This document shows positions 9,857 to 48,516 of a DNA stretch of 64,000 bases, in pieces; within the stretch, counting starts at the first letter, position 1, and every line of letters starts with the position of its first letter. The translations under genes were made by a program, and so were the position numbers. Location: the NCBI GenBank assembly GCA_013327885.1, contig JABUMY010000003.1, positions 186,001-250,000 on the forward strand, written 5' to 3'. The DNA is from Flavisolibacter longurius. GTDB taxonomy: Bacteria; Bacteroidota; Bacteroidia; Chitinophagales; Chitinophagaceae. The notes beneath the pieces are model-generated. The model was not told the origin of the DNA. It ran no database searches and saw nothing but the letters and a program-made list of their open reading frames with translations.

Positions 9857-10015
9857 ATTGCTGCTGTTGCTTTTGGGTGAGACCTTGAAGATAATTCTTT
9901 GGTAACGGATAGAAAAGTTGCGGTTGTGCTTATCAGAAAGTCAATTTCTGTTCGGTGTTCAATTTAAAATGGAAACAGTTGAAATGGGGTGGTTTCTATA
10001 TTTGGAAACATTTGC

Positions 10016-10023
10016 TACATTTG
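10016..10023 (+). promoter_or_regulatory. Putative -7 box of the toxin-antitoxin pair
   Basis: TACATTTG matches the Bacteroidota -7 consensus TAnnTTTG exactly. Transcription would start near 10030, 9 bases before the GTG codon proposed as toxin start. A TTTG at 10001-10004 is too close to be the -33 box, so only the -7 element is supported. Confidence 0.45.
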
Positions 10024-10038
10024 CTTAAAACTGCTGCT

Positions 10039-10383
10039 GTGCGCTATTTCGAAACAAGGTTTTTAGAAGAGGCAAATGCTTTTTTGGCTAGCCTTGATCC
10101 GAAATCGGCCGCAAAGGTCATTTACAACATCGATCTCGCAGAGCAGACAAACGATCCAAGATTGTTTAAAAAGTTACAGGATGAAATCTGGGAATTCAGA
10201 ACGAGGTATGCAGGCACACAAATTCGGTTACTTGCGTTTTGGGATAAAAGCAACAACAAAGAAACGCTTGTAATAGCAACGCATGGCTTTATCAAGAAGG
10301 TCGACAAAGTGTCTGCAAAAGAAATAGAGCGGGCAGAAAATCTTCGGAAAAAATACGTTGAAGAAAAGCAACGAAAACATTAA
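10039..10383 (+). CDS. higB: HigB/RelE-superfamily toxin (Gp49-like)
   Basis: From the GTG at 10039 the product is 114 residues, beginning VRYFETRFLEEANAFL, the usual length and N-terminus of Gp49-like toxins. The frame is open back to a GTG at 9955, but that extra part is odd in composition and lies upstream of the likely promoter. The motifs KKLQDEIWEFRTRY and RLLAFWDK and the segment ATHGFIKKVDK are typical of the superfamily, which acts as a ribosome-dependent mRNA endonuclease. Two bases separate it from the next gene, an XRE antitoxin, giving the toxin-first order known for higBA. Confidence 0.82.
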   Translation: MRYFETRFLEEANAFLASLDPKSAAKVIYNIDLAEQTNDPRLFKKLQDEIWEFRTRYAGTQIRLLAFWDKSNNKETLVIATHGFIKKVDKVSAKEIERAENLRKKYVEEKQRKH

Positions 10384-10385
10384 CC

Positions 10386-10712
10386 ATGGCAAAGACCAAA
10401 ATGAAAACATATTCCCTCGCCGAGATGAAGGACAAATACATTGGTAAAGAGGGGACAAAACAACGGGAACAATACGAGTACGAGCTTCGGATGGATATCC
10501 TCGGACGCATGATAAAACAAGCAAGACAGGAACGAAACCTGACACAAGAACAGTTGGGTGAATTGGTAGGTGTTCAAAAAGCGCAGATCTCTAAACTGGA
10601 GAGTAGTGCAAACAGTGCCACGATTGACACCATCATAAAGGTGTTCAAAGCGCTTAAAGCCGACATTCACTTCAACGTGACCATTGAAAAAAAGCCGCTT
10701 CAGCTTACCTGA
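10386..10712 (+). CDS. higA: HigA-like XRE-family antitoxin
   Basis: This 108-residue protein has a charged N-terminal part (residues 1-40, probably toxin-binding) and a C-terminal helix-turn-helix. The DNA-binding unit reads LTQEQLGELVGVQKAQISKLE at about residues 55-75. It should neutralise the upstream toxin and repress the pair through operator binding. The start is 2 bases after the toxin stop codon, so translation is probably coupled. There is no sign of decay in either gene. Confidence 0.85.
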   Translation: MAKTKMKTYSLAEMKDKYIGKEGTKQREQYEYELRMDILGRMIKQARQERNLTQEQLGELVGVQKAQISKLESSANSATIDTIIKVFKALKADIHFNVTIEKKPLQLT

Positions 10713-10862
10713 TAAAAGCGGTAACTATGACGTTCATCCACGCAAAAAGGTCTCAGTTGCAATGTGCAAAGTTTAGAAGGTTCAATCAATAGTGAAACAA
10801 ATCGAACGCATACCTGCTATAGGTACAATAGCAATTTTTTACTAATAGGAAGAGAAAGGCAA

Positions 10863-12251
10863 GTGTGGCAGTTTCCATCGCAAGATGTATATTCACGATA
10901 CAAACCTTTCCCTTTGCCGAAACCGCAAAACCAGGAATTAAAACGCAGCCTGACCCCGCTTATGCTTTGGGGACTTGGCGTGGGTTACGTTATTTCCGGA
11001 ATGTATTTTGGCTGGAACCTTGGCCTCGAAAAAGGCGGTACGCTGGGCATGGCCATCGCCACCGTTTTTATCATCCTGCTTTATGTGTGCTTTACCTTCA
11101 GTTATACCGAACTGGCCTGCGCCATTCCTAAAGCCGGCGGTGCTTTTGATTACGCCAAACGGGCTCTCGGTGAAGACGTTGGTTTTCTCACCGGCATGGC
11201 ACAGAACATTGAATTTATTTTTGCACCACCGGCCATTGCCTTCGCCATCGGCGCCTACTTTAACCTGTTTTTTCCCCAGTTACCGGTACTGGCCATTGCC
11301 ATTGTGGCTTACCTGCTTTTTACACTTCTGAATATAACGGGAGTGAAAGCGGCAGCCACCTTCGAGTTGATCATTACTTTTTTTGCCGTTGGTGAGCTGT
11401 TGCTTTTTGCCGGCATCACCCTTCCCAGTTTCGAAGCGGTCAATTTAACGCAGGATGCTTTTCCAAACGGCTGGTCCGGCGTGGCAGCTTCCATTCCCTT
11501 TGCCATCTGGTTTTTCCTGGGCATTGAAGGCGTAGCCAACGTGGCCGAAGAAACCATCAACCCGCAAAAAGCGGTGGTAAAAGGGTTTGGTTCGGCCATA
11601 CTAACATTGGTGGTGCTTTGTGTGCTGACCTTTATCAGCGCTGTTGGTGTCGGCGGGTGGAAGGCTATCGTATACACGTCAGCGGGTACTGCATCCGATT
11701 CACCGCTGCCGCTGGCCATGGCCGGCGTAGTCGGCAATGGTGGCCTGCTTTATCACTTACTCATCACCGTTGGACTGTTTGGCCTGGTGGCCTCTTTCCA
11801 TGGGTTGATGCTGGCGGCAGGCCGGTCAAGCTTTGAGTTTGGCCGCGTTGGCTTTGCGCCTGCCTTCCTGGGAAGGGTCAATTCACGTTTTCGCACACCC
11901 GCAAATGCCTTGCTGGCCAACATGGTCATTGGTGTGCTGATCCTGCTTACGGGTAAAACGGCGGAGATCATTACCATTGCCGTTTTTGGTGCGCTGACCC
12001 TTTATATATTTTCGATGCTAGCCCTGTTGCAGCTACGCAAAAAAGAGCCCGGCCTGGAGCGGCCGTTCCGGGTACCGCTTTATCCCGTTTTACCGGTGGT
12101 TGCACTGGTCATTGGTCTTGTTTCGATCCTTGCCATGGCCGTTTTTAATGCGAGCCTTGCCTTTGTTTACTTGTTAGTGATGGGCGCCTCTTTTGCCTTG
12201 TTTAAACTGGTTCGGAAAAAAACAGCGATGCAGCCCTTACCCCTTAAATAG
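10863..12251 (+). CDS. Ethanolamine-type amino acid/amine permease (APC superfamily)
   Basis: The product is about 462 residues with 12 predicted membrane helices. The first conserved block reads LKRSLTPLMLWGLGVGYVIS and is followed by AIPKAGGAFDYAKRALG, which is characteristic of the ethanolamine permease branch of the amino acid-polyamine-choline superfamily. The start is uncertain: there is no ATG before the first helix, and the frame stays open to a GTG at 10764. GTG at 10863 leaves a normal-length cytoplasmic N-terminus of about 22 residues. It is the first gene of an operon whose other members predict gamma-glutamylation and oxidation of an amino alcohol, so import of ethanolamine or a related amine is the best guess. 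Confidence 0.8.
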   Translation: MWQFPSQDVYSRYKPFPLPKPQNQELKRSLTPLMLWGLGVGYVISGMYFGWNLGLEKGGTLGMAIATVFIILLYVCFTFSYTELACAIPKAGGAFDYAKRALGEDVGFLTGMAQNIEFIFAPPAIAFAIGAYFNLFFPQLPVLAIAIVAYLLFTLLNITGVKAAATFELIITFFAVGELLLFAGITLPSFEAVNLTQDAFPNGWSGVAASIPFAIWFFLGIEGVANVAEETINPQKAVVKGFGSAILTLVVLCVLTFISAVGVGGWKAIVYTSAGTASDSPLPLAMAGVVGNGGLLYHLLITVGLFGLVASFHGLMLAAGRSSFEFGRVGFAPAFLGRVNSRFRTPANALLANMVIGVLILLTGKTAEIITIAVFGALTLYIFSMLALLQLRKKEPGLERPFRVPLYPVLPVVALVIGLVSILAMAVFNASLAFVYLLVMGASFALFKLVRKKTAMQPLPLK

Positions 12252-12262
12252 CAAGAACTGTT

Positions 12263-13621
12263 ATGTCTGGAAACAATATTCTTTCGTATGTACAAGCGCA
12301 TCCTTCAGGCAGGGTAAAAATCGCCTTTGCCGATATCGATGGTGTGCTGCGGGGCAAATACATTTCAGCCGAAAAATTTTTATCTGTAGCCGAAAACGGT
12401 TTGGGTTTTTGTGACGTGGTGTTTGGCTGGGATGCAGCTGATGCTTCCTACGATAACAGTCGCTTTACCGGCTGGCATTCGGGTTACCCCGATTGTCCCG
12501 CCAAGCTGGACCTGGCAACGTTTCGCAAGATTCCCTGGGAAGAAGATATTCCATTTTTCCTGGGCGATTTTTGCTCCGCGGACGGCGAGCCGTCACCCGT
12601 ATGCCCGCGGCAGTTGCTGAAGAAAGTGGCTGCAGATGCAGAAGGTATGGGTTATGCGCCGGTTTTTTCGCAGGAGTTTGAATGGTTCAATTTTTCCGAA
12701 ACGCCGCAGTCGGCCAATGAAAAAGGCTACCGTAACCTGCAGCCTCTTACACCGGGCATGTTTGGTTATTCGGTGTTGCGCAGCACATTAAAAAATGATT
12801 TTTTTTCCGGTCTTTTTTCGCAACTGCAAAGTTTTGGCGTACCCCTGGAAGGACTGCATACGGAAACCGGTCCGGGTACTTACGAAGCAGCCATTGCGCA
12901 TGCGCCGATACTGGAAGCCGCTGACAGGGCGGTGCTGTTTAAAACGGCAGTAAAGGAGATCGCTTACAAGCATGGTGTGATGGCGACGTTCATGGCTAAG
13001 ATCCGGGAAGACCTGCCGGGTTGTGGTGGACATGTGCATCAAAGTCTTTGGAACAAGGACAAAACAGAAAACCTTTTTTACGATGGAAAAGATGGTCTCG
13101 GCATGAGTGCCCTGCTGAAACAATACCTCGCCGGGCAATTGTATTGCCTGCCTTTTTTGTTACCACTGTTTGCCCCCACCATCAATAGCTACAAGCGCCT
13201 GGTAGAAGGTGCCTGGGCGCCAACAACACTGACTTGGGGAATCGATAACCGTACTGTTGCGCTGCGGGTTTTGCCGGGAAGTAAACGGAGCTGCCGCCTT
13301 GAAACAAGGGTGGTGGGTGCCGATGTAAATCCTTACCTCGCCATGGCGGGTTGTTTGGCTGCAGGTCTTTACGGCATAAAGCAAAAGCTGGAACTAACAC
13401 AGGAATCGGTCAAAGGCAACGGTTACCGCGACCTGTCGAACGGAAGCCTGCCACGAACCCTGCAGGAGGCCACCGCTTTGCTGAAAGAATCCAGCATAGC
13501 CAAAGAGGTACTGGGTGAGGGCTTTGTAGAGCACTTTGTGCAAACAAGGGAATGGGAATGGCGCCAACACCTGAAAGCCGTTACCGACTGGGAGTATAGG
13601 CGGTATTTTGAGATCATATGA
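12263..13621 (+). CDS. Glutamine-synthetase-like gamma-glutamyl-amine ligase
   Basis: The 452-residue protein has the glutamine synthetase fold. It opens with a short beta-grasp domain with FADIDGVLRGKYIS, followed by the ATP-grasp-like catalytic domain. Metal and substrate motifs are intact: SQEFEWF, TETGPGTYEAA, GCGGHVHQSLW, NSYKRLVEGAWAP and RLETRVVGADVNPYLAMAG. Sequence context rather than nitrogen assimilation suggests its role: it lies 11 bp after an amine permease and before alcohol and aldehyde dehydrogenases and a PuuD-like hydrolase. Such GS-like proteins (PuuA, IpuC and GlnA4 types) attach glutamate to the amino group of putrescine, isopropylamine or ethanolamine. Ethanolamine is favoured because of the permease type; this is inference. 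Confidence 0.8.
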   Translation: MSGNNILSYVQAHPSGRVKIAFADIDGVLRGKYISAEKFLSVAENGLGFCDVVFGWDAADASYDNSRFTGWHSGYPDCPAKLDLATFRKIPWEEDIPFFLGDFCSADGEPSPVCPRQLLKKVAADAEGMGYAPVFSQEFEWFNFSETPQSANEKGYRNLQPLTPGMFGYSVLRSTLKNDFFSGLFSQLQSFGVPLEGLHTETGPGTYEAAIAHAPILEAADRAVLFKTAVKEIAYKHGVMATFMAKIREDLPGCGGHVHQSLWNKDKTENLFYDGKDGLGMSALLKQYLAGQLYCLPFLLPLFAPTINSYKRLVEGAWAPTTLTWGIDNRTVALRVLPGSKRSCRLETRVVGADVNPYLAMAGCLAAGLYGIKQKLELTQESVKGNGYRDLSNGSLPRTLQEATALLKESSIAKEVLGEGFVEHFVQTREWEWRQHLKAVTDWEYRRYFEII

Positions 13622-13663
13622 AACGAGAGACGTCAGACGAGAAACGGGAAACCACAAACTTCA
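13622..13663 (+). repeat. GACGAGAAACG-type repeat directly after the stop codon
   Basis: The words GAAACGAGAGACG, CAGACGAGAAACGGG and AAACC follow immediately after the ligase stop codon. The same AGACGAGAAACG word recurs at 18030-18077 (opposite strand) and 37443-37545. Confidence 0.55.
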
Positions 13664-13674
13664 AACTTGATTAA

Positions 13675-14823
13675 ATGACCTTCGATACAATCTATCAATA
13701 CAACTTTCCGACAACCATTCGCTTTGGTGCTGGGGCCAGCAATGAGTTGGGAGATTATCTTCAAAAGAACGGGTTGAGCCGTCCCTTGCTGGTAACAGAC
13801 CCGGTGGTGCGGGAGCTTCCCTTTTTCAAAAAGGCTGTGCAGCAACTGGCCATAAAAAACATCAGCACAGAAGTGTTTTCCGACCTGCACAAAAACCCGG
13901 TGAAGTCGGATGTGTACAAAGGCGCCGATGTTTACGACGGCACCGACCGTGATTGTATCATCGGCTTTGGCGGTGGCGTGGCCATTGATGTGGCCCGGGC
14001 CATTTGCCTGCGCATCAACCATCGCGAAGACCTTTTTGTGTATGATGACCTGATCGGCGGTGATGTGTACGTGACCAACGATGTTCCACATTTTATCACC
14101 ATCCCCACCACCGCGGGTACCGGCAGTGAAGTGGGTCGCAGTGCCATCATTGCCGATGATGAAACCCACCAGAAAAAGATCCTGTTCTCACCCAAACTGC
14201 TGGCCAAAATTGTGTTTGCCGACCCGCTGCTGACAATGGACCTGCCGCCATTTATCACCGCGGCCACCGGCATGGATGCGCTGACCCACAACATGGAAGC
14301 CTTCCTGGCAAAAATGCCCCACCCGCTTTGCGAGGGCATTGCGCTGGAGGGTATCCGGCTGGTCAGCCTGTCGCTGGAAAAAGCAGTGAACAAGCCGGAC
14401 CTGCAAAGCCGCAGCCAGATGCTCATTGCTTCACTGATGGGGGCCGTGGCGTTTCAAAAAGGACTGGGCGTGGTGCATTCGCTGGCACACCCGCTGTCGG
14501 CACTGCTGGATACACACCATGGACTGGCCAATGCCGTGAACATTCCTTACGGTATGCGCTTCAATATAGAGGGTTCGGAAGAAAAGTTCAGGCGGATAGC
14601 GCAAACGCTGGAACTGGAGGAAAACTCGGGTGAAGCGGTGGTACAATATCTTTTTGAGCTGAACACCGCCATTGGTATTCCGCACCGGTTGCGGGAGATT
14701 GGTGTGCTGACCGAACACATTGAACCCTTGAGCGACCTGGCCCTCGCCGATTTTGCGCATCCCAATAACCCAAAGCCGGTAAGCAGGGAGGATTTTCACC
14801 AGCTGTATACGGAAGCGTGGTGA
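13675..14823 (+). CDS. Iron-containing alcohol dehydrogenase
   Basis: The 382-residue protein belongs to the group III (Fe-ADH) family, with an N-terminal Rossmann-like domain and a helical metal-binding domain. The cofactor motif GFGGGVAIDVA sits near residue 97 and TTAGTGSEVG near 144. Metal ligands are intact: Asp201 and His205 in GMDALTHNMEAF, then His272 and His282 in the HSLAHPLSALLDTHHG stretch. In this operon it is expected to oxidise the free hydroxyl of a gamma-glutamylated amino alcohol to an aldehyde with NAD(P), handing the product to the aldehyde dehydrogenase encoded next. Start ATG at 13675 gives the normal family N-terminus. Confidence 0.87.
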   Translation: MTFDTIYQYNFPTTIRFGAGASNELGDYLQKNGLSRPLLVTDPVVRELPFFKKAVQQLAIKNISTEVFSDLHKNPVKSDVYKGADVYDGTDRDCIIGFGGGVAIDVARAICLRINHREDLFVYDDLIGGDVYVTNDVPHFITIPTTAGTGSEVGRSAIIADDETHQKKILFSPKLLAKIVFADPLLTMDLPPFITAATGMDALTHNMEAFLAKMPHPLCEGIALEGIRLVSLSLEKAVNKPDLQSRSQMLIASLMGAVAFQKGLGVVHSLAHPLSALLDTHHGLANAVNIPYGMRFNIEGSEEKFRRIAQTLELEENSGEAVVQYLFELNTAIGIPHRLREIGVLTEHIEPLSDLALADFAHPNNPKPVSREDFHQLYTEAW

Positions 14824-14883
14824 ATGGTGAGTGGTGAGTGGTGAGTGGTGAGTAGTGAGTAGTGAGTAGTGAGTAGTGAGTAG
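14822..14883 (+). repeat. GTGAGTG/GTGAGTA tandem repeat at a stop codon
   Basis: A seven-base unit (AGTGGTG, drifting to AGTAGTG) is repeated about eight times, starting at the TGA stop codon of the alcohol dehydrogenase gene itself. There is no spacer structure, so it is a simple tandem array and not CRISPR. Confidence 0.85.
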
Positions 14884-14933
14884 ACTAAAGAGGATTAGCA
14901 ATTATTCCTATCGTAGAGGAACAAACGTTTTTC

Positions 14934-17006
14934 ATGAAAAAAAGAATTGGGATTAGTTATACGGAGCTCTCGTTTCAAACCTATTGGGACTGGATTACGC
15001 CGGAAGACCTGGGCGATGATGTAGAACTGGTCCTTTTGTCGTTTGAGCGAAACAACCGGGAAGACCTGGCAACCTGTGATGGCTTTGTGCTGACCGGTGG
15101 CGTGGATGTGCATCCATCGGTTTATGGCGGTGCTATTGATTATCCTAACAAAACAGACCCGCTTTTACCCCAACGCGATGCTTTTGAAACGGCGATCTAC
15201 CACTATGCCGTTCAACACCGTTTGTCGTTGCTGGGAATCTGCCGCGGATTGCAACTGGTGAATTGTTTGGAAGGCGGCACCCTGGTGCAGGACCTTGGTG
15301 AAAACAACAGCCGGCACCGCAGGGAAGGAGCGGACAAGCAACATTCCGTTACCATTACAAGTAACAACTTGCTGGCCTCCGTGGTTGGCAATTTAGAAGG
15401 CACAGTGAACAGTGCCCACCACCAGGCTGTGGATGCTATTGGTGACAACTTGCTGGTAAGTGCACGTGCCGATGACGGCACCATCGAAGCAGTGGAGTGG
15501 AAAGAAAAAAAGGGAAAGGGTTTTTTACTTTGCGTGCAATGGCATCCGGAACGAATGGAAGAAAAAGAAAAACACCCTTTTTCACAAAACTGCAAAGCAA
15601 GTTTTTTACAGGAAGTCAGAAATACAACCATGAAAAAACTGATCATTACAAATCCTGGTACCGGGGAAGAAATAGCCACACTGAACCAGGACACACAGGC
15701 ATCGATTCAGCAAAAGCTTGTGCTGTTACAAGAGGGGCAAAAGGCATGGCAGGAAGTTCCGTTAGCGCAACGGGTCGCCATCCTGCATAAATTTTCTACC
15801 CTGCTGAAAGAGAACAGCGAAACGCTGGCTGCCATCCTGACCTCAGAGATGGGAAAACCCCTGCAGCAGTCTCGCAACGAGATTGCCGGCGCCTGTAAGC
15901 GTATTCACTGGCTCACGCAAAATGCTGAAAAATACCTGCAGCACGAGATCATGACCGATGAAGACGGCATGCAGGAAAAGATCGTGTACGAGCCGCTGGG
16001 TGTTGTGTGCAATATCTCCGCCTGGAACTATCCCTACCTGGTAGGCACAAACGTTTTTATTCCCGCATTGTTAGCTGGTAATGCAGTTCTTTACAAACCT
16101 TCGGAATATGCTACCCTCACGGGTTTAGAAATTGAAAAATGGCTGAAAGCCGCCGGCGTACCCGAAAATGTATTTCAAACCGCCATTGGCGACGGAGCAG
16201 TTGGTGAGCTATTGCTCGACCTTCCGCTGGATGGTTATTATTTTACCGGCTCCTACAAAACCGGCCAACACATTTACAACCGCGTGGCGCCAAAGATGGT
16301 TCCCTGCCAGTGTGAGTTGGGTGGCAAAGACCCGCTTTATGTTGCCGATGATGTCGCGGACATTGCGGCTGTTGCCGCCGCTACGGCCGATGGTGCCTTT
16401 TACAACAACGGCCAAAGCTGCTGCGCGGTGGAACGGATCTACGTGCACGAAAACATTTATACGCAATACCTTGACGCCTTCGTGGCCGAAGTATCCCGGT
16501 TCAAGATAGGTACACCCACGGAGGAAGGTGTTTACATCGGTCCGCTCAGTCGAAAAGATCAAGTCCTTTTTTTGGAAGAGCAGGTAAGGGAAGCAAAAGA
16601 AAAAGGTGCCCAGGTTTTACTGGGCGGTAAAAGGGTGGAAGGGAATGGCTATTATTTTCAGCCCACTGTTTTGGCCAACGTCGATCACAGCATGCGCATC
16701 ATGACCGAAGAATCGTTTGGTCCCCTGATTGGCATTATGAAAGTAGAAAGTGATGCTGAAGCGGTGAGCCTGATGCAGGACACGGAATACGGGCTAACGG
16801 CGGCTGTGTACAGCCAAAGCCGCGAAAGGGCCGAGGCCATTTTGCAGCAATTGAATACCGGCACGGTGTACTGGAATTGCTGCGACCGCGTTAGTGCGGC
16901 ACTGCCCTGGAGTGGCCGCAAACATTCGGGTTTTGGCGCTACTTTGTCACATAGCGGCCTTCGGGCATTTACCCGTCCCAAAGCCTATCATTTGCGGGGT
17001 GTTTAA
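14934..17006 (+). CDS. Fusion of PuuD-like glutamine amidotransferase and aldehyde dehydrogenase
   Basis: One 690-residue frame joins two complete enzymes. Residues 1-232 form a class I amidotransferase of the gamma-glutamyl-GABA hydrolase type: nucleophile Cys103 in GICRGLQL, and His204 and Glu206 in QWHPE. Residues 233-690 form a full NAD(P)-dependent aldehyde dehydrogenase that even begins with its own Met: Glu461 in CELGGKD and catalytic Cys496 in NNGQSCC. A weak AGGAAG lies 12 bases before the internal ATG at 15630, so separate initiation is possible. The predicted reactions are oxidation of a gamma-glutamyl aminoaldehyde to the acid and then cleavage to glutamate plus the amino acid (glycine if the substrate is ethanolamine). 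The order of domains is reversed relative to the pathway order. The frame is clean, with no stop between the parts. Confidence 0.85.
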   Translation: MKKRIGISYTELSFQTYWDWITPEDLGDDVELVLLSFERNNREDLATCDGFVLTGGVDVHPSVYGGAIDYPNKTDPLLPQRDAFETAIYHYAVQHRLSLLGICRGLQLVNCLEGGTLVQDLGENNSRHRREGADKQHSVTITSNNLLASVVGNLEGTVNSAHHQAVDAIGDNLLVSARADDGTIEAVEWKEKKGKGFLLCVQWHPERMEEKEKHPFSQNCKASFLQEVRNTTMKKLIITNPGTGEEIATLNQDTQASIQQKLVLLQEGQKAWQEVPLAQRVAILHKFSTLLKENSETLAAILTSEMGKPLQQSRNEIAGACKRIHWLTQNAEKYLQHEIMTDEDGMQEKIVYEPLGVVCNISAWNYPYLVGTNVFIPALLAGNAVLYKPSEYATLTGLEIEKWLKAAGVPENVFQTAIGDGAVGELLLDLPLDGYYFTGSYKTGQHIYNRVAPKMVPCQCELGGKDPLYVADDVADIAAVAAATADGAFYNNGQSCCAVERIYVHENIYTQYLDAFVAEVSRFKIGTPTEEGVYIGPLSRKDQVLFLEEQVREAKEKGAQVLLGGKRVEGNGYYFQPTVLANVDHSMRIMTEESFGPLIGIMKVESDAEAVSLMQDTEYGLTAAVYSQSRERAEAILQQLNTGTVYWNCCDRVSAALPWSGRKHSGFGATLSHSGLRAFTRPKAYHLRGV

Positions 17007-17068
17007 ATGCCCAGGTTTCGTTACATCCCAGCGGGCTTTCTTATCTTACAAAACAAAACGCTTGCAAT

Positions 17069-17911
17069 ATGTCTACTCAGCTTTCTCCCCAGCAAATTGC
17101 AGCCTATCACCGTGATGGCTTTTTGGTGATCAAAGGATTTTGTTCACCTGAAGAAACAGACCGTTTGTATAGTACTGCTCTTCAGGATAGCGCCATGCAA
17201 AAAAATGCACTGGACCTGAATGACCAGTCGGGAAAAAAAACAAGACTGTCGCTTTGGTTTACACCGGGCAACGATGTTTTTGGCTACCTCACCCGCAGCG
17301 AACGCATGGTGAAAACCGTGGCACCATTGCTCGACAGCGAGGCACCGGTTTGTCATTTTCACTCCAAACTCATGCAAAAAGAACCCCGCGTTGGCGGCGC
17401 CTGGGAGTGGCACCAGGATTATGGTTACTGGTACAAAAACCAGTTTGTATTTCCCGATCAATTAATCTCGGTGATGGTGGCGCTAACACCGGCGAACAAG
17501 GAAAACGGCTGCCTGCAGGTCATCAAGGGCTCGCACAAAATGGGTCGCGTCAATCACGGTTTTGCCGGTGAACAGGTAGGTGCTGATATGGTGATGGTGA
17601 ACAATGCGCTGCAAACAATGGAATTGCTGTACTGCGAACTTGATCCCGGTGATGCCCTGGTCTTTCACCCCAACCTCCTGCACCGCTCCGAAGCCAATTT
17701 GTCGGAACACCCGCGGTGGTCGATCATTGCCTGCTATTGTTCGCAATCGAATCTTGCCTACAACGAAACCTCCACGTCATGGAAAACACCCGTCGACACC
17801 GTGCCCGACGAAGCTATCCTCGAATGGGAAGCGGCCTCTCTTTCCGAAGCGGATTTTTTGAAGAAAGAAGCCGACCCCGCGTTGAAGGAAACAGGGTGGG
17901 AGGGTGTTTAA
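17069..17911 (+). CDS. PhyH-family Fe(II)/2-oxoglutarate dioxygenase
   Basis: The 280-residue cytoplasmic protein has the double-stranded beta-helix of the phytanoyl-CoA dioxygenase family. The facial triad is visible: His115 and Asp117 in WHQDYGYW, and His205 in HPNLLHRSEAN. The group includes hydroxylases acting on phytanoyl-CoA, ectoine and 2-aminoethylphosphonate, so substrate prediction from sequence alone is not safe. It starts 62 bp after the amidotransferase-dehydrogenase fusion and probably belongs to the same operon. There it might release or modify the amine fed into the gamma-glutamyl route; this is inference. Confidence 0.82.
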   Translation: MSTQLSPQQIAAYHRDGFLVIKGFCSPEETDRLYSTALQDSAMQKNALDLNDQSGKKTRLSLWFTPGNDVFGYLTRSERMVKTVAPLLDSEAPVCHFHSKLMQKEPRVGGAWEWHQDYGYWYKNQFVFPDQLISVMVALTPANKENGCLQVIKGSHKMGRVNHGFAGEQVGADMVMVNNALQTMELLYCELDPGDALVFHPNLLHRSEANLSEHPRWSIIACYCSQSNLAYNETSTSWKTPVDTVPDEAILEWEAASLSEADFLKKEADPALKETGWEGV

Positions 17912-44923: not shown

Positions 44924-45006
44924 TATTGAAAGCAGCTTCCGCAACGTGTGGACTGCAGGCAGTGCCAACAGGATCACGCTGCCGCTATCATTCTAATGGT
45001 TGCGAC

Positions 45007-48000
45007 ATGAATAAAAATCAGCATCGTTTTTTTCTTCTTTTTTTTGCCTTGCTAACAGGGTTGTTTGCAGAAGCGCAAATGGCGCAGCCAACGTTTACGG
45101 TAAAGCAAACCAGCTTTAAGCGTGACTCCTTTTTTATTACAAAATTTGGTGCAAAGGCTGATGGCGTGACGCTGAACACGGCGGCCATCAACAATGCCAT
45201 CAACACGGCCAACCAGCGTGGCGGTGGGGTTGTGGTCATACCGGCGGGACTTTGGCTGACAGGTCCCGTGGTGCTGAAAAGCAACGTCAACCTGCACCTG
45301 CAAAAAAGCGCCTTGCTGCAGTTCACCGATGATTTTACACAGTATCCATTAATAGAAGCCAACTGGGAAGGCTTGCCGCAAATGCGCAACCAGTCGCCCC
45401 TATCGGCTACCAACGCTACCAACATTGCCATCACGGGAGCCGGTATCATTGACGGCAACGGCGATGCCTGGCGAATGGTGAAAAAAGAAAAGCTGACCGA
45501 AAGCAACTGGAAAAAACTGGTGGCATCAGGCGGTGTGCTGGATGAAAAGCAACGCATCTGGTACCCGTCGGAAAGTTCGTTGAAAGGCTCCACGCTGCAA
45601 AATCCCGGTGTGATCGATGGCAAAAAAACAGCGGAATTCTATCAGTCGGTCAAAGACTTTTTGCGTCCCAACCTTCTTCTTTTTACTTCCTGCAAAACAG
45701 TTTTGCTCGAAGGCGTAACGTTTCAAAATTCACCGGCCTGGTGCCTGCACCCCCTGATGTGCGAGGACCTGACCGTTCGGAATATTTCGGTGAAAAATCC
45801 CTGGTACGCACAGAACGGCGATGGTATTGACGTGGAAAGCTGCAAAAACGTACTCATCGAAGGCAGCACCTTTGATGTGGGTGATGACGGGATCTGTATC
45901 AAATCGGGAAGGGATGAAGCTGGTCGCAAACGCGGCATGCCCACCGAAAATGTCATTGTTCGCAACAACACGGTTTACAGTGCCCACGGCGGTTTTGTAA
46001 TCGGTTCGGAAATGAGCGGCGGTGCCCGCAATCTTTTTGTCGATAACAACACGTTTATCGGTACCGATATCGGTTTGCGTTTTAAAACAACCCGTGGCCG
46101 CGGTGGCGTGGTGGAAAACATCTATATCAGCAATACATACATGAAGGATATCATCGGCGAAGCCATCCTGTTCGACATGTATTACGCAGCAAAGGACCCG
46201 GTTCCGCTGGCCGGCGAAAAGCGGGAGCCACCGGTGGTGGAAGCAAAACCCGTTTCGGAAGAAACGCCGCAGTTCCGCAATTTTTATATCAAGAACGTGG
46301 TGTGTCACGGCGCTGAAAAAGGTGTGTTCGTTCGCGGCCTGCCGGAAATGAATGTGCAGAACATTTACATGGAAGACCTGGTGATCGAGTCCGAAAAAGG
46401 ACTGGAGATGACCGAAGGCACCAACATCGTATTGAAGAATGCTTATTTCATCCCGGCAAAAACAGACCCGGTGATGAACATACACAACAGCCGCAACATT
46501 GTGCTGGAAGGCGTGAAGTACAACAACGCCGCCTTGCTGCTGAATGTATCAGGACAAAAAACCGGGAACATCCAGTTGAACGGCACCGACCTGCAAAAGG
46601 CCACCAAAGCAGTGAACACCGAATACGGCGCAACGACCGATGCTGTGCGGATTGCAAAAGCAGCAACGGGCAATTATTCTCATGCGCAGGCACTGGCCAA
46701 TACCGCCATTAAAATGTGGCCCGATTCGTTTTCGCTAAAGCCCAATACCATTGCCAAATGGAGCTACGACCAGGGTGTTATTCTGAAAGGCATTGAAGGC
46801 ATTTGGTATGCCACCGGCGATAAAAAATGGTTCGATTACATTCAAAAAAGCATGGACCATTATGTGCGGGAAGACGGCACTATCAAAGGTTATCGCCAGG
46901 ATGAATTCAACATCGACCACCTGAACAACGGAAAGGTGCTGCTGCTGCTTTACCAGGTCACTAAAAAAGACAAATACCGCAAGGCGGTGGAAAATCTTTT
47001 TACACAAATAAAATCACATCCGCGTACAAAGCAGGGCAGCTTTTGGCACAAGAGGATCTATCCAAACCAGGTTTGGCTGGATGGGCTGTACATGGGACAA
47101 CCGTTTTTTGCCGAGTATGCAAAGCTCAATGGATTGGATGATGCCTTTAACGACATTACCCGCCAATATGTGCTGATCGAAAAAAATGCCCGTGATCCAA
47201 AAACAGGCTTGCTTTACCATGGCTGGGACGAAAGCCGCGAGCAGCAATGGGCCAATAAAAAGACAGGGCTTTCGCCGCATGTGTGGGGCCGTGCACTGGG
47301 CTGGTTTGGCATGGCCATGGTGGATGTGCTGGACTACTATCCCGACAATCACCGCGGAAAGGATTCTATCATTGGAATTCTGAACCGTTTTGCCAAAGCA
47401 GTAAGCACGGTTCAGGACAGCAAAACGGGACTATGGTACGATATTCCAAACATGATCGGCGTAGGGAAAAATTACCCCGAGGCTTCGGCTTCGGCGATGC
47501 TTGCTTACACACTGGCCAAGGGTGTTCGCAAAGGTTACCTGCCGGCTACTTATCTGGCCAGTGCGAAAAAAGCCTACGAGGGTATCCTGAAAGAATTTAT
47601 CAAAGAAGAAGACGGGCAAACGAACCTACACGGCACCGTTATGGTATCGGGACTGGGTGGCAAGCCTTACCGCGATGGCAGCTTTGACTACTACATGAGC
47701 GAGCCGGTGATTGTGAACGATCCAAAAGGCATGGGTGCTTTTATCCTTGCCGCCAACGAGATTGAAATGCTTAAAACTTTACCGGTTGCCAAAGGCAGAA
47801 CGGTGATGCTGGATAACCACTTCAATAACGAGTGGCGCAAAGATGCTTCCGGTCGCAATGTGCCCTGGCATTACATCTGGGACGAAAAAGATAACGACGG
47901 TTACTACACACTGGGGCAGGTTTTTGAGCGCTACGGTGCGAGGCTAAATACGCTGAAAGCCGCACCCACAGCACAAAACCTGAAAGGCGCTGATGTTTAC

Positions 48001-48516
48001 ATCGTGGTAGATCCCGATGACACGAAAGAAACAACAAAGCCAAACCACATTACACCCAAAGATGCGGCAGCCGTTGCCGCCTGGGTACAAAGCGGCGGCG
48101 TGCTGGTTTTGTTGGGCAATGACTCGGCCCGCAACAACATCCGGAGCATGAATGTGCTGGCATCAAAGTTTGGCGTAACGCTTAACCACGATCTTTTTAA
48201 TACGGTTGAAGGCAACCAGTTTGAGCAAGGTGCCGTTGATGTTTCTGCTGCAAGCGACATTTTTCCAACGGCAAAAAAGATCTATGTAAAAGAGCTGGCA
48301 ACACTCTCGGTAGCGCCACCGGCAAAAACCATTGTTACAAAAGACGGCAAGAACATTATAGCAGTGGCGAAGTACGGAAAGGGTACCGTGTTTGTTCTCG
48401 GCGATCCCTGGCTGTACAACGAGTACACCGATGGCCGCAAGCTGCCTGCTGATTTTCATAACTACGAAGCTGCCTGCGACCTGGTAGCCTGGATCGCCAA
48501 ACAAATTAAAAAATGA
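45007..48516 (+). CDS. GH28 polygalacturonase fused to GH105 unsaturated glucuronyl/galacturonyl hydrolase
   Basis: The 1169-residue secreted protein (signal 1-24, ending FAEAQ) has three parts. Residues about 35-520 are a GH28 beta-helix with catalytic Asp near 270 (NGDGIDV) and the DD pair near 293 (VGDDGICIKSG); VIGSEMSGG and GLRFKTTRGRGG follow. Residues about 555-925 are a GH105 (alpha/alpha)6 barrel with the catalytic Asp near 692 in VWLDGLYMGQP and Asp near 739 in YHGWDES. Residues about 930-1169 resemble the DUF4350/GATase-like C-terminal domain (VLVLLGNDSARNN, GKGTVFVLGDPWLYNEY) seen on some GH105 proteins. One polypeptide could therefore cut polygalacturonate and remove the unsaturated end residue. 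It is the first gene of the operator-controlled operon and its stop overlaps the next start. Confidence 0.88.
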   Translation: MNKNQHRFFLLFFALLTGLFAEAQMAQPTFTVKQTSFKRDSFFITKFGAKADGVTLNTAAINNAINTANQRGGGVVVIPAGLWLTGPVVLKSNVNLHLQKSALLQFTDDFTQYPLIEANWEGLPQMRNQSPLSATNATNIAITGAGIIDGNGDAWRMVKKEKLTESNWKKLVASGGVLDEKQRIWYPSESSLKGSTLQNPGVIDGKKTAEFYQSVKDFLRPNLLLFTSCKTVLLEGVTFQNSPAWCLHPLMCEDLTVRNISVKNPWYAQNGDGIDVESCKNVLIEGSTFDVGDDGICIKSGRDEAGRKRGMPTENVIVRNNTVYSAHGGFVIGSEMSGGARNLFVDNNTFIGTDIGLRFKTTRGRGGVVENIYISNTYMKDIIGEAILFDMYYAAKDPVPLAGEKREPPVVEAKPVSEETPQFRNFYIKNVVCHGAEKGVFVRGLPEMNVQNIYMEDLVIESEKGLEMTEGTNIVLKNAYFIPAKTDPVMNIHNSRNIVLEGVKYNNAALLLNVSGQKTGNIQLNGTDLQKATKAVNTEYGATTDAVRIAKAATGNYSHAQALANTAIKMWPDSFSLKPNTIAKWSYDQGVILKGIEGIWYATGDKKWFDYIQKSMDHYVREDGTIKGYRQDEFNIDHLNNGKVLLLLYQVTKKDKYRKAVENLFTQIKSHPRTKQGSFWHKRIYPNQVWLDGLYMGQPFFAEYAKLNGLDDAFNDITRQYVLIEKNARDPKTGLLYHGWDESREQQWANKKTGLSPHVWGRALGWFGMAMVDVLDYYPDNHRGKDSIIGILNRFAKAVSTVQDSKTGLWYDIPNMIGVGKNYPEASASAMLAYTLAKGVRKGYLPATYLASAKKAYEGILKEFIKEEDGQTNLHGTVMVSGLGGKPYRDGSFDYYMSEPVIVNDPKGMGAFILAANEIEMLKTLPVAKGRTVMLDNHFNNEWRKDASGRNVPWHYIWDEKDNDGYYTLGQVFERYGARLNTLKAAPTAQNLKGADVYIVVDPDDTKETTKPNHITPKDAAAVAAWVQSGGVLVLLGNDSARNNIRSMNVLASKFGVTLNHDLFNTVEGNQFEQGAVDVSAASDIFPTAKKIYVKELATLSVAPPAKTIVTKDGKNIIAVAKYGKGTVFVLGDPWLYNEYTDGRKLPADFHNYEAACDLVAWIAKQIKK

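Follow-up and report, generated by a model that had tools for sequence, protein, structure and literature searches.

In the window, the 64,000-nucleotide stretch of Flavisolibacter longurius DNA analysed here, five + strand open reading frames (ORFs) at 10863-17911 include a candidate operon for ethanolamine catabolism by gamma-glutamylation. The first gene (10863..12251) encodes an ethanolamine permease of the amino acid-polyamine-organocation (APC) superfamily, predicted to act in uptake, which scored 434.7 bits against TIGR00908, above the cut-off of 381.75. It is followed by a glutamine-synthetase-like gamma-glutamyl-amine ligase (12263..13621; PF00120, 323 bits), the predicted gamma-glutamylethanolamide synthetase, and by an iron-type (group III) alcohol dehydrogenase (ADH; 13675..14823; PF00465/PF25137), the predicted gamma-glutamylethanolamide dehydrogenase. 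The fourth gene (14934..17006) encodes a fusion of a PuuD-type C26 amidotransferase/hydrolase (Peptidase_C26, about residues 1-228) with an aldehyde dehydrogenase (ALDH; Aldedh, about residues 232-690), and the fifth (17069..17911; PF05721) a PhyH-type Fe(II)/2-oxoglutarate oxygenase that probably does not belong to the operon core. From 5' to 3', the intergenic gaps are 11, 53, 110 and 62 bp. A first-pass annotation of this DNA had listed the same five genes, and their place, order, strand and families were confirmed by the ORFs and by Pfam and NCBIfam matches. The permease frame is open already from a GTG at 10764; either GTG 10863 or TTG 10914 would be the latest start possible upstream of the part common to its relatives.

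The ligase and the oxidising enzymes

The ligase evidently is not a housekeeping glutamine synthetase. It fell under the cut-offs of the NCBIfam models for GlnA (231.3 bits, cut-off 429.15), type III glutamine synthetase and gamma-glutamylputrescine synthetase (221.8 bits, cut-off 650). In an alignment with GlnA and PuuA of E. coli MG1655, a tryptophan was found in the column of GlnA E327, and none of the 17 other non-GlnA sequences aligned has a glutamate there, the residue being W, F or Y. The residues that we checked for metal and glutamate binding are retained. The accessible text of PMC6529630 states that GlnA4 and PauA7 do not conserve E327, having F331 and W296 there. That of PMC11335346 describes organic-amine ligases as losing ammonia-pocket residues and numbers the flap residue Glu357; since E357 is retained in the window ligase, we relied on the E327 statement of PMC6529630. 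Three proteins of the genome match PF00120: this ligase, a 729-aa type III enzyme and a 350-aa protein with beta-grasp and catalytic domains. The window ligase is 47% identical to a plasmid ligase of Photobacterium sp. GJ3 and 46% to one of Legionella lytica. Its second best match in the PDB is entry 5dm3, which we take to be the Chromohalobacter ligase encoded beside an ethanolamine-binding protein. Annotation pipelines would label this key gene glutamine synthetase.

The catalytic motifs of both dehydrogenases and of the gamma-glutamyl hydrolase domain look intact. ADH residues D201, H205, H272 and H282 and ALDH residues N365, E461 and C496, presumably the catalytic ones, are conserved among the relatives compared, and the Cys, His and Glu of the C26 domain align with PuuD C114, H222 and E224. 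The fusion frame runs over 690 aa with no internal stop. Among 68 distinct close loci (defined below) with ADH and ALDH and/or amidotransferase, the amidotransferase is fused in 10, separate in 55 and without a match above threshold in 3; the joint has the same position in 11 other fused frames, of which one comes from a second record of the genome that holds the window. Because the fused frame recurs in 10/68 loci with its joint at one place, it is no sequencing slip. This amidotransferase-ALDH fusion recurring among relatives is new here.

Distribution of the operon and lineage of its ligase

At E <= 1e-60, the ligase matched in 48 of the 195 family genomes and in 52 of the 395 phylum genomes. 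We assembled 180 ligase neighbourhoods (48 from the family outside the window, 44 from the phylum outside the family, the best 80 of 587 named relatives and 8 plasmid loci), many of which end at contig ends. A ligase of sufficient length was present in 178. The distinct loci numbered 172, of which 153 are termed close (identity of 50% or more) and 19 distant. Permease, ADH and ALDH and/or amidotransferase lie beside the ligase in 57 of the 153 close loci, and ADH with ALDH and/or amidotransferase, with no permease match, in 11; a further 11 hold the permease and are cut downstream, and 2 are cut. All 57 distinct relatives that combine permease and ligase with ADH and with amidotransferase and/or ALDH carry the genes found in one order on one strand, an arrangement that is more than chance. 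Holders of the operon include, among the matches listed, Chitinophaga, Niabella, Flavihumibacter, Pedobacter, Parapedobacter, Olivibacter, Sphingobacterium and Aquirufa. Of the 195 family genomes, 35 have an orthologue of the ADH (E <= 1e-120), and each of these also has the ligase; when the window genome was left out, the ligase was present in 34/34 ADH-bearing genomes versus 47/194 overall.

A quick tree of 74 ligases, with support from the Shimodaira-Hasegawa-like approximate likelihood ratio test (SH-aLRT) only, long-branch warnings on four rows, and GlnA4 and the Chromohalobacter ligase left out, placed the window ligase within a 58-row group (SH-aLRT 99) together with ligases of Legionella, Photobacterium, Burkholderia, Pseudorhizobium and Shinella. 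Within this tree, the Legionella and Photobacterium ligases lie in the sister branch of the Bacteroidota ligases, and the placement of IpuC is unsettled. The Paracoccus/Ruegeria-type ligases and the Bacteroidota ligases associated with short-chain dehydrogenases (SDR) group separately (SH-aLRT 100), with the window ligase outside. The tree thus indicates that the Bacteroidota route has a ligase lineage of its own, separate from the Paracoccus/Ruegeria type and from the ligases that go with SDRs, which is new here.

A different Bacteroidota module was seen in 64 of the 153 close loci (L142, L156, L231, L244, L260 and others). It joins a ligase relative to a kinase-fold protein, with a HAD-IIA (haloacid dehalogenase) phosphatase in 60 of the 64 and the kinase-fold protein alone in 4; in the quick tree, operon ligases and kinase-module ligases mostly lie on separate forks. 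The kinase-fold protein, of about 350 aa, matched nothing in Pfam or, by sequence, in the PDB, and no NCBIfam model above its cut-off. Its predicted model, with a mean predicted local distance difference test score (pLDDT) of 68.4, is similar to small-molecule kinases that have the aminoglycoside-phosphotransferase fold, including the aminopropanol kinase 6ef6. This ligase-kinase-HAD sister module is a more novel lead than the ethanolamine operon.

Some loci depart from both patterns. L250 (6980-13844) has permease and ligase, then three opposite-strand frames, the ADH and a gene that reads by eye as CoA-transferase-like, with no ALDH or amidotransferase match nearby. In L172 (8943-14488) and L176 (9291-14898), both from Bacteroidota, the order is ligase-SDR-ALDH-amidotransferase-ethanolamine permease, a set of the same gene kinds as the accessible text of PMC6529630 gives for the GlnA4 cluster of Streptomyces; their permeases are 66-67% identical to that of the window.

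Weighing ethanolamine as the substrate

In the proposed pathway, the permease would import ethanolamine and the ligase would couple it to glutamate at the expense of ATP, yielding gamma-glutamylethanolamide. The iron-type ADH would then oxidise the hydroxyl of this product, giving an aldehyde that the ALDH half of the fusion would convert to gamma-glutamylglycine, and the C26 half would split the latter into glutamate and glycine. Per ethanolamine, one ATP would be spent, glycine and two reduced nicotinamides gained and glutamate recovered. A cobalamin lyase and a shell would be unneeded because the route would free no acetaldehyde. While the genes, their families, the catalytic motifs, the conserved order and the absence of EutB and shell matches are read directly from the sequence, we infer from it each of the substrates and the succession of reactions.

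No match to EutB and none to bacterial microcompartment (BMC) shell proteins was found in the genome, and control searches matched where expected. With neither found, the window operon is not a Eut microcompartment pathway, which agrees with the earlier suggestion of a route independent of a B12 lyase and of a microcompartment. We put the probability that the operon serves ethanolamine catabolism by gamma-glutamylation at about 0.8. A permease above its cut-off, the tryptophan in place of E327, the intact motifs and the published operons of like content favour this core of the first-pass annotation; the novelty that it gave to the ADH and the membership of PhyH found no support. Moreover, the same kind of permease stands with two different glutamylation sets, one with an iron-type ADH and one with an SDR, and this speaks for ethanolamine.

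Several observations weigh against this reading. The window ligase shares only 35-36% identity with those of Paracoccus and Ruegeria and lies apart from them in the quick tree, and a literature search found no biochemistry for any member of its lineage. At the column of GlnA Asp-50, an aspartate is aligned beside an insertion, where the alignment is ambiguous. Five of the 153 close loci have none of the partners considered here nearby, two hold permease and ligase alone (L201, L203) and in one, L250, permease and ligase are joined by a distant ADH. That ADH and ligase co-occur mostly reflects their physical linkage; only genome G149 has both clearly unlinked. Since near relatives of the ligase, 53-64% identical, sit in the kinase-fold module (64 of the 153 close loci), the ligase family does not fix the substrate. 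Finally, the best NCBIfam model for the ADH is 4-hydroxybutyrate dehydrogenase (325.6 bits, below the cut-off of 500), as it is, also below cut-off, for the ADH relatives of Paracoccus, Legionella and Ruegeria.

The main rival keeps the same chemistry and assigns the operon another amino alcohol as main substrate, such as alaninol, 1-amino-2-propanol, 3-aminopropanol or serinol. An alcohol dehydrogenase followed by an ALDH would suit any terminal amino alcohol, the ligase is nearer to IpuC (about 41% identity) than to the Paracoccus-type ligases, and the ADH resembles 4-hydroxybutyrate dehydrogenase. We nevertheless hold it to be unlikely: the permease exceeds the cut-off of a curated ethanolamine model, its 66-67% identical counterparts in L172 and L176 are paired with an SDR-type glutamylation set, and ethanolamine is the commonest terminal amino alcohol. 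A polyamine pathway of the Puu type, acting on putrescine, would account for the ligase, C26 hydrolase and ALDH, all of Puu kinds, but the operon has no FAD-dependent amine oxidase or aminotransferase, a hydroxyl-oxidising enzyme occupies the oxidase's place and the ligase stays far under the gamma-glutamylputrescine synthetase cut-off, so that putrescine appears highly improbable. We give hardly any credence to an ordinary ammonia-using glutamine synthetase lying beside unrelated dehydrogenases: the ligase does belong to PF00120, but its GlnA score, the lost E327, the two other glutamine synthetases of the genome and the conserved gene order all speak against it.

A further alternative turns on the PhyH gene. 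Because its iron and 2-oxoglutarate residues (H115, D117, H205 and R216) are invariant in 13 orthologues, PhyH is predicted to be a working oxygenase. Its predicted model (mean pLDDT 63.4) had proline hydroxylase H11 and GriE as best Foldseek matches, which do not indicate its substrate; the nearest solved structures are free-amino-acid hydroxylases. The first-pass annotation had counted it in the operon, and as a core gene we rejected it: there was no PhyH match in the 180 fetched ligase loci, many of them cut by contig ends, and the orthologues elsewhere, PhyH being present in 31 of 195 family genomes, are unlinked to the ligase. Indeed, none of the 16 orthologue neighbourhoods fetched lies beside a ligase; recurrent neighbours, as read by eye from the sequences with no model scan, are sugar oxidoreductases of the Gfo/Idh/MocA kind (6/16), an opposite-strand AraC-type regulator (5/16) and glycoside hydrolases. 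Genome G104, of the same genus as the window, has PhyH and no ligase, and genome G004 shows the reverse.

PhyH and the operon do co-occur across genomes. The operon ADH is present in 14/30 genomes with PhyH versus 20/164 without (p 4e-5; two window control genes, p 0.03 and 0.34), and by genus PhyH and ADH coincide in 12/22, with 4.6 expected (p 6e-5; control genes, 0.22 and 0.10), in tests uncorrected for kinship below genus or for lifestyle. For this co-occurrence we keep, at low odds, a functional tie in which PhyH would replace the P450 of the Ipu isopropylamine pathway and hydroxylate gamma-glutamyl alkylamides or a related intermediate, the operon then also taking amines of the ethylamine or isopropylamine type. 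An operon that is itself an alkylamine pathway, with PhyH hydroxylating the gamma-glutamyl alkylamide ahead of the ADH, would have its parallel on the TC1 plasmid, where ipuC stands with an SDR, an amidotransferase, an ALDH and a P450 with ferredoxin and reductase (the P450 step is given in the accessible text of PMC6776027). The missing linkage, the genomes G104 and G004 with only one of the two genes and the likeness to free-amino-acid hydroxylases make it very improbable. PhyH behind the operon most likely does something else.

Directly before the permease, a Gp49-type and a helix-turn-helix (HTH) gene stand in tandem (9955-10712), probably as a toxin-antitoxin pair. The HTH gene (10386-10712) was considered as the operon's regulator and set aside, as it pairs with the Gp49-type gene and a toxin-antitoxin pair is likelier. 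A promoter scan returned 6 promoter-like sites versus 6.6 in shuffles, which is chance level; terminator-like sites numbered 20 versus 10.8, and one weak site overlies the end of the fusion gene. Farther along the window, 29300-55100 holds genes for the use of pectin-type polysaccharides (SusC/SusD-like, pectinesterase, GH43 and others), among them one frame at 44926-48516 that matches both GH28 and GH88.

Comparison with known glutamylation systems

The operon is very probably a Bacteroidota version of an already known pathway, and the pathway idea is not new. We found no publication on a gamma-glutamyl ethanolamine route in Bacteroidota, the literature being judged by titles and the starts of abstracts. 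The B12- and compartment-free ethanolamine route, in the searched literature one of Proteobacteria and Streptomyces, would thereby extend to many members of a phylum active in the decay of organic matter, ethanolamine being a building block of membrane lipids. The fused bifunctional enzyme and the uncharacterised ligase lineage suit simple assays.

According to the accessible text of PMC10132767, the Phaeobacter operon comprises RpiR, gamma-glutamylglycine amidohydrolase, TRAP (tripartite ATP-independent periplasmic) transporter genes, ethanolamine gamma-glutamylase, aldehyde dehydrogenase and gamma-glutamylethanolamide dehydrogenase, and is induced on phosphorylethanolamine. The same text names the pathway of Phaeobacter sp. 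MED193 EtoX/ETAGA/GETADH/GAADDH/GGAH and calls it closely related to that shown for Chromohalobacter (salexigens) and Agrobacterium (C58). A Paracoccus denitrificans plasmid carries RpiR-amidohydrolase-TRAP-ligase-ALDH-iron-type ADH, the gene order that a figure legend of that text shows for Phaeobacter; because the last gene of this same-order operon is an iron-type ADH (39.5% identical to the window ADH), the Phaeobacter dehydrogenase is probably one too. The first-pass annotation had seen its telling difference in an alcohol dehydrogenase replacing the Puu amine oxidase, a claim overtaken by the predicted alcohol dehydrogenase step of the published pathway and by the iron-type ADH of Paracoccus. 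As far as that text describes it, the Phaeobacter operon shares with the window a ligase, an alcohol dehydrogenase, an ALDH, a gamma-glutamylglycine hydrolase and an ethanolamine transporter; it has a TRAP transporter and a hydrolase of the N-formylglutamate-amidohydrolase type, whereas the window has an APC permease and a PuuD-type C26 domain fused to the ALDH.

In Streptomyces coelicolor, the accessible text of PMC6529630 reports that in vitro work and a mutant proved GlnA4 to be a gamma-glutamylethanolamide synthetase; it gives the rest of the pathway (short-chain dehydrogenase, ALDH, amidotransferase) as predicted and describes a permease of relatives as aiding growth on ethanolamine. That cluster, likened here by description and not by sequence, has a short-chain dehydrogenase where the window has an iron-type enzyme. 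The plasmid operons of Legionella lytica (ligase-ALDH-iron-type ADH-amidotransferase) and Photobacterium sp. GJ3 (permease-ligase-ALDH-iron-type ADH-amidotransferase; permease 552.8 bits to TIGR00908), known from genes alone, have the ALDH before the ADH and no fusion, whereas in the window the ADH precedes the fused ALDH. The Ipu pathway, whose ligase is the IpuC compared above, shares gamma-glutamylation, amidotransferase and ALDH with the window operon, unlike which it uses P450 hydroxylation, a short-chain dehydrogenase and an alkylamine substrate. The E. coli Puu pathway has the same logic of glutamyl protection and a C26 hydrolase with the same C/H/E residues, but nothing in the operon described here corresponds to its PuuB amine oxidase or PuuE aminotransferase.

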